This document shows positions 10,898-22,708 of a DNA stretch of 38,475 nucleotides, one piece after another. The stretch's first letter is position 1. Each line of letters starts with the position of its first letter. Source of the stretch: Clostridia bacterium (lineage in GTDB: Bacteria; Bacillota; Clostridia; Oscillospirales; CAG-272). The notes beneath the pieces were generated by a model. That model did not search any database and was not told the origin of the DNA. It was given only the letters and a program-made list of their open reading frames with translations. The position numbers and the translations under genes were made by a program. The DNA lies in assembly GCA_017453245.1 (NCBI GenBank), contig JAFTKM010000010.1, positions 1 through 38,475 of the forward strand. The letters are read 5' to 3'.

Positions 10898-11476
10898 ATG
10901 AAGGCAGTATATATTTATGCATCGCGCTTACGCGCGTTCTGGGTGCTTGTGCCAATGTCGATGCTGTTGATGCTCTCAATCAGCTTTAACGATACGGTTG
11001 ACGGAGCAATCAAGCTCTACCCTCTTATCCTATTCAGCATCGGCGCAATTATCTTCACCTTTGTGTATCTGTTCAGGTTTATCAGTGTCTCATACAGCGA
11101 GATAAAGTACATAGGACGCTTCACCTCAAGGGATAGCGCGACCGTAAACGCGGGAAAAACGCTCGTAATTGACATTTTGGAGAAAAAACGAGTAAGTGTC
11201 AGGCTTTTCGGCAATGAGGGCTATAATCCGGAAATTAAGTGGCTTACAAACGAGGACGGCGAAGATGGCGACGTTTGCCTGTTCAGAGGAAAGGCATACG
11301 GCGGTGAGAGTGTGGCAATCAGTCTTTTGCGTTACTTTGGCGTTGAGGACTATGCGGATCTCGATGCGATACTCAGCGAGGACGGATTTGTCAAGTCGTA
11401 TGAAAACGTAACGGTGAGGTCGTTGACCGAGCTTGAGCATAGACAGATAAGAATAAAATTCGATAAAACAGTATAA
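10898..11476 (+). CDS. Small membrane protein of unknown function with a cytoplasmic-type C-terminal domain
   Basis: The 192-residue product has two hydrophobic helices (about residues 13-30 and 39-62, joined by a short loop) and a soluble domain of about 130 residues. The layout, with SYSEIKYIGRFTSRDSATVNAGKTLVIDILEKKRVSVRLF after the second helix, recalls small two-helix proteins with a PH-like or beta-rich tail, but I do not recognise a family. GGAGG lies 5 bases before the ATG. It has its own promoter. Its stop codon is one base from the left inverted repeat of the hairpin element at 11478, so that element forms the 3' untranslated region of this gene. Function unknown. Confidence 0.75.
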   Translation: MKAVYIYASRLRAFWVLVPMSMLLMLSISFNDTVDGAIKLYPLILFSIGAIIFTFVYLFRFISVSYSEIKYIGRFTSRDSATVNAGKTLVIDILEKKRVSVRLFGNEGYNPEIKWLTNEDGEDGDVCLFRGKAYGGESVAISLLRYFGVEDYADLDAILSEDGFVKSYENVTVRSLTELEHRQIRIKFDKTV

Positions 11477-11495
11477 TAAAAAGTGATGAGCGGAT

Positions 11496-11526
11496 AGCGT
11501 GATGCTCCAAGCGGAGCATTCACGCT
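11496..11526. repeat. Long hairpin at the left of the element
   Basis: AGCGTGATGCTCC pairs with GGAGCATTCACGCT across an AAGC loop, 13 bp with one bulged T. It follows immediately on the left terminal inverted repeat. Confidence 0.75.
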
Positions 11527-11703
11527 AAATGATGTTTGCCCTTATGGGCAAGTGATGTTACCTTCGGCAGTGATGTTCACTGCGTGAATGATGTTGTGCC
11601 TTCGGCACAGTGGGCAAACATCACATCACTGCGAGCATTTGCGAGCAACATCATTATGCGTAGCATAACATCATTTTTGCGTTAGCAAAAACATCACTAA
11701 CAG

Positions 11704-11756
11704 AAAAAAGAGCAGACACACAAGATTTTTCGTCTTGCATGTTTGCTCTTTTTGTT
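11704..11756 (+). terminator. Terminator inside the hairpin element
   Basis: AAAAAGAGCA pairs with TGCTCTTTTT (11744-11753); an inner CAAGA/TCTTG stem tops the structure and TTTTTG follows. It can end transcription coming from the small membrane-protein gene at 10898. Confidence 0.7.
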
Positions 11757-11913
11757 TGTAATAAGGGTTTGGGCTCAGCCCATAATGCGTTTGACTGGTC
11801 AAATGCGATGCTCGCACTTAGTGGTATTTTTTAAATTCTCCGCTAAGAACCTCAACCTATATCCGCTCATCGCTTTTTGCTTACGCGCTGTGAGTGAGTG
11901 CGCATACGTATAA

Positions 11914-11941
11914 AGAGGGTGCACGAAACCGTGCACCCTCT
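11914..11941 (-). terminator. Terminator of the 1791-aa surface protein gene
   Basis: A perfect 12-bp stem, AGAGGGTGCACG / CGTGCACCCTCT with a 4-base loop, lies 29 bases after the minus-strand stop codon, followed on that strand by TTATACG. Confidence 0.8.
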
Positions 11942-11970: not shown

Positions 11971-14900
11971 TTACTCCTCAAGCTCAACCTTACCGCCTGC
12001 AAGAGTGATCATCTTGACAGCCTGAATGGAGAACTTGCTTGCCTTAACGGTAAGTCTCTTGTACATAATACCGCGGGCAAGAACCTTTACTCTCGCGATC
12101 TTGGGCGATACGAGACGCTTAGCCTTGAGAGCCTCTACGTCAACAACGTCATCGTCCTCGAAGTTCTCGCAGATTACGTCGAGGTTGATCTCACCCATCT
12201 TGCCTGCGCGTCTTGCAGCCTCAACGGTTACGATCTCGATCTTTGCCTCAGCCTCCTCATCGGTGATAAGCTGGTCAGCAACCTCTGCGTCAGCGTGAGC
12301 GGTACCGTCATCGAAGATCTGTACTACGGGAGCCTTGGGCTCTTCTACTACGGGCTCTTCTACTACGGGCTCTTCCTCGACTACAGGAGCCTCCTCGACT
12401 ACAGGAGCTTCCTCGACTACGGGTGCCTCCTCAATAACAGGAGCTTCCTCGACTACGGGAGCCTCCTCAACAACGGGAGCTTCCTCGGTCTCGGGAACGT
12501 CAACCGCGATGATCTGCTCGGTAGTCTTCTCGCTTGTACCGGACTCAATGAGCTCGCTTACGTTAACGTGTACGAAGGTCATATCGTCGCTGAGCGTTAC
12601 GCCTGCGGGAAGGATAACCTTAACAAGGCCGCGCTTTGCAAGCTCCTCGGTGGTCTCGTAAGGCATACGGTAATCAACGTTAGGCTCATCGCCCTTGGTG
12701 AGCTCATACTTAGCCATCATCTCATCGATAAGCTCGAGAGTGTACTTAAGAGCTCTGGTGCTTCTCACCTTCATCATCATAGGCACCTTAGCAAACTTAG
12801 GCTTGTCGGAGCAATCGATGAAGTGATACTTGTTGATATTGAATTCCTTAGGATCAAGGTTAAGGTTAACTATGAGAGTTCTGCCCTTGATGTTAAGCTT
12901 AACAAGCTGGATTCTGCCCTTATTGAAGGCCTCGTAGTTCCAGCTCTCACGAGCCTTGATGCCCTTATAGGAAAGAACGTGATTCTTGATCTCGGTGTAG
13001 AAGCTCTGAATGTTCTCGGTAGACTGGATAAGTCTGGACATGAAGGAGCTTCTGAATCTGATGTGAACGACCTCGCCGCCGATGATAGCGGTAGCTTCCT
13101 TGCCGTCCTCACCCATAACGAGTACAGCGGTCTGAGGCTCTGTGGATACAGGCTCCTCAACAACGGGCTCTTCGGGGGCTACAGGCTCTTCCTCGACTAC
13201 GGGCTCTTCCTCAGCAGCAACTACTTCCTCGTCGATCTCGGGAATCTCTTCCTCTGCAGCCTCTTCTACAGTCTCGTCGACCTCGGGAACTTCCTCAGCC
13301 TCCTCAACTACGGGCTCCTCCTCAACCTCGGGAACCTCCTCGGTCTCGGGCCCGGAGATGGGCTCCTCAGCCTCAACTGCAGGGATCTCATCGGGAGCGG
13401 GAGTCTCATCCTTCTTGTTCTTGAGGATGAAGTAAACAGCAACTGCGATACCTGCAACAAGGATTATTGCAAGAAGGATCCAGAGCCAAGCGAGATTAGC
13501 ACCCTCTACCTTTACGATAGCGTATACGGAGAAGTGAGTGGTCTCGAATACCATATAATCACCGTCACGGGTGGATTCCATAACCTCTACGGATCCGTCA
13601 TCCTTGATGTGGATAACTCTGAGCTCATCGTCCTTAAGCGCACGGTACTCAGCGGGAATAAGAAGTCTTACTGTGAAGGTCTGGCCGTCAACGGAAACAA
13701 CGGCGCCGCCCTCGGTGAAGTAAATATCGTATGCTACGAGAGTCTCGGCATCCTTGCCGTCAACCTCATAGGTGGACTCAACGTCCTCGGTCACACCTCC
13801 TGCGATAATATTATCGGGATCAAGACCGTCGGTAGCCTCTACCTTAACGATAACGTCGGTGCCATCGGTAAGCTCGTGGTTGGTCTTCTTGTCACCGGTA
13901 ATGGTAAGGGTTGCGGTGAGCTCGTCGGAATAAGTGTAATTAGCTGCATACTCAGCCTTAACGGTAAGAGTAGCGGTTACGGGGTAAGCGCCGAGAAGCA
14001 CCTTGTCATTGCCCTCGTAGGTAACGTCGAGCATTGCAAGAACGTCAGCGTTGCCGGTAACGGTTATGCTGTGAGCGGTTCCGTCATAAGTAACGGTAGC
14101 ATTCTCAAGCTTGATGCTGGAGCCGTCGATAGCCGCCTTGGCGATAGTCCAGTCAACGGAAGGAACGGTGCCTACTACGTTGTAGTTAGCATTCTCCGCG
14201 CTTGCGGTTGCGGTCGCGGTATAGTCGCCTGCGTTGGTGAAGGAGTTATCGCTATATACAACGGTTACGCCTGCGGGAACACTTACGAGAGTGACGCCCT
14301 GAAGCTGACCGTTATAGGTGAAGGGAGTGGTATAATTCCAGGTGAGAGCGGAAACGTCCACGTCAAGCGCCTTGATGCCCCAGCTAAGTGTGGTAGGCTC
14401 GCCGTCTGCAACTACTACATAGTAGTTAGAATCGGAGCACTCGAAGGTAACGTTAGCGGTATAAGCGCCTGCGTTGGTAGCGGTGTTACCGGTTACAACT
14501 GCAGAAATGAACTGCTTAACAGACTCAACGCTCACGCTGAAGGTAGGAGCTGCAACACTCTGCTCTGCTCCGTTATAGATAATGCTGTCAGCTACGTAAT
14601 TCCAGGTAATGCCGCTTACGGTCACGGGAGCCTTAGCTATTGTCCAATCGCAGGAAACGGAACCGGCGGAAAGAACGTAGTTGGAGCTATTGGAGGTAAG
14701 AGCTGCAACAGCGGTATAGCCGCCTGCGTTGGTAGCGCTTGCATCAGCATACTCAACGTCGATATAATCGGGAAGATTATTGATCTCTACCTTGTGCTCA
14801 CTTCCGTCGAATACGAACTCGGAGGAGGACCAGGTAAGGGTGGAAACGTCAAACTGAGCGGGAGTAATGCTCCACTCAAGATCCTCGATCACGCCAAGGC

Positions 14901-22339: not shown

Positions 22340-22708
22340 GGGGCCGCAATGGTTTCGACAGGGGTTTTGAAGTACGATAAGCGTAGCGCGCCGGATAATC
22401 GCGTCAAAATGTCCAAACTTAAACAATAAACGACAACAATAACGTTGCTATGGCTGCCTAATGGCAGTGCCGCGGCTTAATATTGCCGCCCGTACCGCTT
22501 GGGAGGACTACGGCCCAAGCCGTGCGTCAAATCAGTAGTGCACGTGAACCGAGAGTCGCTTGTGTATCGGTCACGCATTAAGAAGCTACCCTGACGGAAG
22601 CCTGTCACTCGGCGTCCCGATGTGGGAAATCTAAAAGATTGACTGTCTACGGAGAAAGTTGTGTGAATGGATCTTTGGACACGGGTTCAATTCCCGTCGG
22701 CTCCACCA
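22340..22708 (+). ncRNA. ssrA: tmRNA (one-piece)
   Basis: The 5' end GGGGCCGCAATGGTTTCGAC is the conserved tmRNA start, and the 3' end has a T-arm (ACGGG TTCAATT CCCGT), acceptor strand CGGCTCC and encoded CCA. GGGGCCG and CGGCTCC pair over 7 bp with one wobble. The length of 369 nt is normal. The tag frame ends GTT GCT ATG GCT GCC TAA at 22461; with GAC at 22432 as resume codon the tag is DNNNVAMAA, and the exact resume codon is inferred. tmRNA with SmpB frees stalled ribosomes and marks the unfinished protein for proteolysis. It has its own promoter and terminator. Confidence 0.97.

Follow-up and report, generated by a model that had tools for sequence, protein, structure and literature searches.

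A probable MITE-like element in the loop of a transcription terminator carries a palindromic word array that partly matches the candidate RNA Gut-1

Layout of the locus

The window (the whole stretch of 38,475 nucleotides that was analysed) contains a repeated element of 363 bp between two genes. The open reading frame upstream of it stops at 11476, one base before the left arm of a host terminator begins (11478), as had been predicted originally for the start of the structure, and the neighbouring gene lies on the opposite strand and ends at 11971, so that the place of insertion is situated between convergent genes. The following parts were distinguished:

11478–11493, no strand: left arm of the host terminator, AAAAAGTGATGAGCGG plus A-tract, pairing with 11863–11878
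11494–11495, no strand: AT, left copy of the 2-bp target duplication, read by the rule derived from 48 of 55 parsed copies
11496–11858, plus strand: whole element, 363 bp, ends taken from the comparison of its dispersed copies
11496–11526, plus strand: left terminal inverted repeat (first 21 nt), self-folding as hairpin P0; left and right repeats agree imperfectly, the parsed copies having a median of 15 matching positions out of 20
11527–11599, plus strand: match to Rfam RF01706 (Gut-1), W0-hp1-W1-hp2-W2-hp3-W3, 40.0 bits, E 1.7e-6, below the gathering score of 50
11530–11595, plus strand: left half of the array, TGATGTT at 11530, 11553, 11571 and 11589 with hairpins 1–3 interspersed (sequence, array scan)
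11596–11609, plus strand: hairpin 4, apex of the nested fold (sequence, consensus fold)
11612–11623, plus strand: array centre, GGGCAAACATCA, which perfectly complements 11530–11541 (W0 and the 5' arm of hairpin 1)
11617–11696, plus strand: right half of the array, AACATCA at 11617, 11647, 11667 and 11690 with hairpins 5–7 (sequence, array scan)
11700–11757, no strand: inner terminator-like stem (inverted repeat I1) that has an A-tract as well as a T-tract and is plausible for either direction, matched by the terminator scan on the minus strand only
11758–11858, plus strand: conserved tail, with the right terminal inverted repeat at its end (11838–11858), from copy comparison
11859–11860, no strand: AT, right copy of the target duplication, read by the same rule as the left one
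11861–11878, no strand: right arm of the host terminator plus T-tract (sequence, inverted repeat)

The element thus runs from the left inverted repeat folded as P0 through the word array, a stem resembling a terminator, and a conserved tail to the right inverted repeat, and no open reading frame of at least 80 amino acids starts and ends within its 363 bp. The four TGATGTT and four AACATCA words named in the original prediction are exact, and they are tightly clustered: pairs of TGATGTT at 5–25 nt spacing occur six times in the window, all of them in the array, and were found 0 times in 100 dinucleotide shuffles. Folding, which had been proposed as a check, gave a structure far beyond that of shuffled segments on the plus strand (−177.4 kcal/mol, z −11.0) as well as on the minus strand (z −10.4). 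The terminator that had been noticed inside the structure corresponds to the stem between array and tail, where the terminator scan (2 matches, against 0.7 expected by chance) placed a minus-strand match at 11742–11716; over 69 copies the score of this inner stem has a median of 30, against 14 in shuffled sequence. Another strong hairpin (12 pairs) lies just downstream at 11914–11941 and is probably the terminator of the convergent gene. At the Rfam gathering threshold the window contained only a tmRNA (22340–22708, plus strand, 154.7 bits).

Copies and distribution

A search of the own genome, a fragmented assembly of about 64% completeness, returned 25 matches to the segment. In the taxonomic neighbourhood matches were found in 39 of 59 genomes, i.e., in 33 of the 36 genomes of the same genus and in 6 of 23 that belong to the order but to other families. 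Class-wide, similarity to the array of the window was detected in 19 of 391 genomes including the own one, some of these matches being only 22–35 nt long, and a word array was recognized by scan in 6 of 21 other loci with similarity. The conserved tail was present in 2 of 291 genomes of a class sample (own genome included), and an exact search of a named genome collection with the tail pattern gave at least 118 stretches. Among the matches listed, all stretches came from MAGs titled Clostridia, Oscillospiraceae, Clostridiales or Ruminococcus, and the hosts, where named, were roe deer, sheep, goat, water deer, and yak. The phages and plasmids searched held no match to the element, and the viral contigs no exact match to the tail pattern.

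The gene context was counted for 51 copies (18 of 69 were excluded for short flanks). In 30 of them, as a raw count, an open frame of at least 100 codons ended within 120 bp on both sides; a frame end was present on the antisense side only in 10, on the sense side only in 7, and on neither side in 4, with median distances to the copy of 22 and 24.5 bp.

Insertion into terminator loops

The original prediction took 19-bp inverted repeats at 11478–11496 and 11860–11878 for the ends of the element. Their complementarity (95%) stands, but they bound the insertion site and not the element, which occupies 11496–11858. Other copies are again enclosed by one arm with an A-tract and one with a T-tract, the sequences of which differ from copy to copy, and since those of one own-genome copy (L011) also occur closed without the element in two relatives (see below), we regard the 19-bp ends as the arms of the target terminator. 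The flanks were analysed with 116 distinct tails. Both ends were parsed for 69 of these, 67 of which also had both flanks; the 47 others were without a parsed left or right end, several of them lying at contig ends and others having failed the parser, the window copy among them. The outer stem score of the 67 copies had a median of 30 versus a mean of 18.7 for randomly re-paired flanks, and it reached at least 28 in 45 copies versus 5.1% of the re-paired flanks; the 22 copies with lower scores include some that owe them to decay or misparsing.

For the target duplication, the ends were set one base outside GCGTG and CACCC, and 14 of the 69 copies were left out for unclear ends. A duplication of 2 bp was present in 48 of the 55 clear-ended copies (500 shuffles: mean 17.7, highest 28) and absent in 7, and no other offset and no longer word stood out. 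The window copy, the right end of which (CAACC) failed the parser, was not among the 55. A reading of the 3-nt flanks as an IS630-like TA duplication was dropped because the 2-bp duplications have several sequences.

The comparison of orthologous loci, also proposed originally, revealed empty sites for another copy of the own genome (L011), which reads AAAAAACAGAGCGG, element, CCGCTCTGTC. At the same place G006 has AAAAAACAGAGCGG-CGAAAAAG-CCGCTCTGT and G018 has AAAAAACAGAGCGG-AAAAAT-CCGCTCTGTC, with the arms closed over a short loop in both genomes. None of the 11 relatives with the upstream gene has an element at the window locus (one copy, L121, lies further downstream), and by eye most of them have a short terminator there. 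The ortholog in G011 (L117), a protein of only 38% identity, is followed by a closed terminator with arms AAAAAGCGATGAGG/CCTCATCGCTTTTT that resemble those of the window, and when flanks were compared among the collected loci, the one empty site obtained was that of the window locus in G006 (L113), where the terminator differs. Behind the S20 gene (rpsT) the own genome carries a copy, and 0 of 18 parsed relatives do (29 loci fetched, 19 of 26 parsed). Neither an array unique in its genome nor unrelated sequence at the site in relatives, the outcomes that had been named as contradicting the original prediction, was found, and with dispersed copies, terminal inverted repeats, a 2-bp duplication, and empty sites, its option of a non-autonomous mobile element is the one borne out.

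Two further loci downstream of rpsT (L124 and L139) hold other repeated hairpin arrays with different words. The flanks of a second own-genome copy, L010, were likewise compared with G006 and G018; the related locus in G018 contains an oppositely oriented copy whose words are of another class, the adjoining gene being only 68% identical and its orthology therefore unsure.

The word array

A homology-free scan, which required a 7-mer to occur three times directly and three times inverted, yielded 94 distinct arrays in 1.41 Mb of loci, mostly chosen for such arrays, and 0 in shuffled loci. Their words fall into the classes TGAAGTT, TGATGTT, TCGATAT, GCGATAT, GTGATAT, TGAATTG, TGAAATC, GTTATGA, and others, several of which coexist within one genome, and the layout is constant across the classes, with usually three left words plus a variant first word and four right words. 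Of 60 TGA[A/T]GTT arrays, 58 were pure when words with other changes were not counted (44 with TGAAGTT only, 303 words; 14 with TGATGTT only, 105 words), and the two mixed ones had a single odd word each. Within a class the identity of the words was 0.990 and that of the hairpins 0.665.

For a consensus fold, 33 of 46 arrays were aligned, the other 13 being left out for odd length or other words. The fold is nested, each left word pairing with a right word and a hairpin standing on each side of the junction; the higher-order palindrome of the original prediction is in this respect correct, except that its outermost stem consists of the host terminator arms. Paired cells made up 98.5% in the aligned arrays, 92.3% after shuffling and 36.8–44.4% when slid, and 91 cells had changed on both sides versus 26.6. 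Further pair types were not in excess over shuffles in this alignment (304 of 500 shuffles reach the observed value). In an unrooted tree of the hairpin columns, the 8 T arrays and the 25 A arrays are split by one branch with a support of 99/99, so the word changed once on the tree, in all of its places, in one direction or the other. A second, rival pairing is also retained: in 57 of 68 arrays the centre is complementary, for at least 8 nt, to the first word together with the 5' arm of hairpin 1, and this complementarity spans word classes (mispaired control 9.9%). One array (L066) has several extra word-hairpin units, as if by duplication of units.

The array also occurs outside of the element described above. 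A hairpin ends within 10 nt of the first word in 73 of 79 oriented arrays, against 69 of 400 random 60-mers. A second chassis has other inverted repeats (P0 CGGCGACCTGC...), a tail and a stem of its own and the same array; it lies inside terminator arms at L047, L074, L076, L078, and L231, and by eye it appears to be flanked by a 3-bp duplication. Stand-alone arrays follow other terminators closely on the 3' side, and these are often terminators of tRNA genes. Together, the second chassis and the stand-alone units indicate that the array is a module of its own. At L222 and L045 the second chassis directly adjoins ends of the first one.

Relationship to Gut-1

The statement that no named family fits has to be revised, as the left half of the array matches Gut-1 (Rfam RF01706), a 77-nt candidate sRNA that covers exactly this half. 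For the window copy the match (40.0 bits, gathering cut-off 50) arises with a permissive threshold; elsewhere the cut-off is exceeded, e.g., at L017 of the own genome (68.3), L043 (50.7), L255 (62.6), L200 (54.1), and L261 (53.7). The word classes TCGATAT, TGAATTG, and GTTATGA had no Gut-1 match in the loci tried, nor had L097, L099, and L102 at E values up to 1, so the Rfam model covers a part of the array family. In six arrays from five loci the model matched on both strands. A class-wide search, in which at most about 11–12 candidates per genome were scored, gave matches in at least 64 of 391 genomes, at least 39 of them over the cut-off, and among the control genomes E. coli was the one with a match, below the cut-off.

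At the 20 loci returned by the class-wide search (one of them the own-genome copy), an inverted half, defined by at least two inverse words within 150 nt, was present in 18, against 38 of 686 control windows. A strong hairpin lay just 5' of the motif in 17, and in 11 a tRNA gene ended 30–45 bp upstream on the same strand. From the inverted half, the 5' hairpin and the placement behind tRNA genes, Gut-1 looks like one arm, the left one, of a palindromic array of DNA lying at the 3' foot of terminators. Both have three hairpins split by a repeated word (W0-hp1-W1-hp2-W2-hp3-W3); Gut-1 was published as an RNA of the human gut, according to the passages seen of its source, whereas here the motif forms half of a mirrored array in mobile elements, many of them from MAGs that name ruminant hosts. 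Our literature search, which for Gut-1 covered the 2010 survey alone, did not return the element.

Proposed explanation and alternatives

Taken together, we consider it probable that the element is non-autonomous and MITE-like, that it inserts with a 2-bp duplication into terminator loops, and that it carries a palindromic array, part of the family of which is known as Gut-1. As the comparison of copies shows, insertion takes place in the loop of an intrinsic terminator, very often between converging open frames; movement would depend on a transposase acting in trans. As the element has a terminator-like stem of its own, the splitting of the host terminator could be harmless. The payload is three hairpins among four direct words, an apex, and three hairpins among inverted words, and its role presumably lies at the level of DNA.

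The likeliest of the alternatives, to which we nevertheless give a low probability, is a structured non-coding RNA (Gut-1 as published) that has spread with the genes whose 3' ends bear it and whose fold acts in the transcript. Passages of the 2010 survey (PMC2864571) rate Gut-1 as certainly RNA, not cis-regulatory and confined to human gut sequences, Rfam models it as an sRNA, and the stems of the arrays contain paired changes. The folds also differ slightly with the strand: the local hairpins are more stable on the sense strand (mean −4.97 versus −4.44 kcal/mol), which also has more G-T pairs (5.2% versus 3.6%), and this small excess leans a little towards RNA. Both values are, on the other hand, lower than the 13.2% of G-T pairs in shuffled segments, and the tmRNA of the window, folded by minimum energy, has 9.5%. 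Against an RNA stand the loops, which invert with the strand: C-TNC-G closes 62 of 114 left hairpins and 0 of 136 right ones, whereas C-GNA-G is found in 32 of the 136 and in 0 of the 114, so the hairpin units have a polarity, which is reversed in the second half. DNA mini-hairpins with a GNA or GNNA loop and a closing C-G pair are exceptionally stable, as described in PMC4686876. Because the second half is a mirror image, the Gut-1 motif also stands on the opposite strand, in line with the Rfam matches on both strands; in the tRNA cases the array sits behind a terminator, and the chassis is placed at an antisense end only about as it is at a sense end only (10 and 7 copies). Loop polarity and mirrored half favour a DNA-level structure over the folded RNA that had been among the options of the original prediction, and most likely the array is kept as a DNA structure, either as single-stranded hairpins or as a cruciform.

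The element could also be a chromosomal protein-binding site, comparable to BIMEs, that acts between convergent genes on supercoiling or the stop of transcription, its mobility being incidental. The raw count of 30 of 51 copies between convergent open frames would agree with this, as would the uniformity of words within arrays, which is to be expected if a protein reads them. Single genomes, however, contain several word classes, for which one reader would not do, and we think this alternative improbable too. The uniformity itself probably results either from templated correction between words at replication or from a protein that reads the word. More tentatively, and with the odds rather against it, we propose that Gut-1 arrays keep an identity word of their own, with all seven or eight words, on both sides of the array, changing together via foldback-templated correction or a cognate factor, and that they spread via terminator hairpins on at least two unrelated inverted-repeat chassis.

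In REPs, BIMEs, and REPINs, hairpins that contain a constant word stand inverted to each other at the ends of genes. The element resembles them in its inverted layout of words and hairpins, which recalls a pair of REPs, and it might accordingly be taken for a REPIN-like element moved by a RAYT/Y1 transposase on single-stranded DNA (REPs and BIMEs are described in general terms in passages of PMC4666352). Y1_Tnp was detected in 13 of 40 genomes searched, incomplete assemblies among them, and it was absent from the likewise incomplete assemblies of the own genome (G000) and of nine others with copies (G001, G002, G006, G007, G008, G010, G011, G014, G016). For this absence from the own genome and many carriers we rejected Y1/RAYT as the mover, and with terminal inverted repeats and a 2-bp duplication, which do not fit such elements either, the REPIN-like reading is highly improbable. 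Scarcely credible at all is that the outer stem is part of the element and simply changes rapidly, without any targeting of terminators: the inner terminator stems and P0 do differ from copy to copy, but at one locus (L011) two relatives have the same arms closed at the orthologous place with no element between them, and the duplication lies inside the arms.

Search for the mover and comparison with known systems

Among the collected loci, no transposase with matching ends was found; 152 of 155 end motifs lay in tails or P0 hairpins, and the other three were decayed or variant copies. One locus with a gene upstream of a tail (L190) was rejected as an autonomous copy, being a truncated copy beside ordinary genes. 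Members of the IS30 family duplicate 2 bp of the target and prefer a nearly palindromic site (passages of PMC9333248), and the element likewise has a 2-bp duplication in a palindromic target. IS30 transposases were present in 10 of 36 genomes searched, but not in the own genome; in the 10 loci inspected of 17 fetched, no matching pair of ends was found and the inverted repeats of the resident IS30s are unlike those of the element, so that IS30 was not retained as the mover. One of the IS30 loci (L296) has a single-sided resemblance to an end at 5 mismatches.

Bacterial MITEs such as BOX, RUP, and SPRITE of pneumococcus are, in passages of PMC10969869, short, intergenic, and geneless, with inverted repeats, a target duplication and stable folds, and SPRITE contains a terminator-like part. 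The element shares with MITEs its size of 363 bp, lack of coding capacity, dispersal, terminal inverted repeats, and 2-bp duplication; ends in common with an autonomous element, as MITEs have, were not seen in the collected loci examined. It differs from the MITEs of those passages by the insertion into terminator loops, the array of words varying as a set, and the use of two chassis for one payload. Group IIC introns recognize a stem-loop in the DNA next to the place where they insert (passages of PMC10190682), and stand-alone arrays similarly begin just 3' of a hairpin, whereas the first chassis sits inside the loop; no Rfam match to an intron ribozyme was obtained in the scans run.

If the proposed explanation is true, a catalogued candidate non-coding RNA would be one arm of a mobile DNA palindrome, and the way it is annotated in gut genomes would change. 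The element would also be an example of mobile DNA that targets the loops of terminators, where genes are spared by its landing, and would offer a natural setting in which to ask how short words, though separated, remain identical, be it by templated correction or by a reader protein.

Further inverted repeats were also noticed within the copies. Upstream of a tail at position 4101 of L183, the loop of the inner terminator contains a foreign inverted-repeat insert (ATGATATGCACC...GGTGCATATCA). A second and smaller palindrome, of about 40 bp (GGGGTTCCCCGAAGCGAAG...GAGCTTTGGGGGTTCGC type) is present at L097, L071, L163, L166, L176, L182, L192, L030, and L031, either in hairpin loops of the array or between the inner stem and the tail, as if it, too, landed in hairpin loops.
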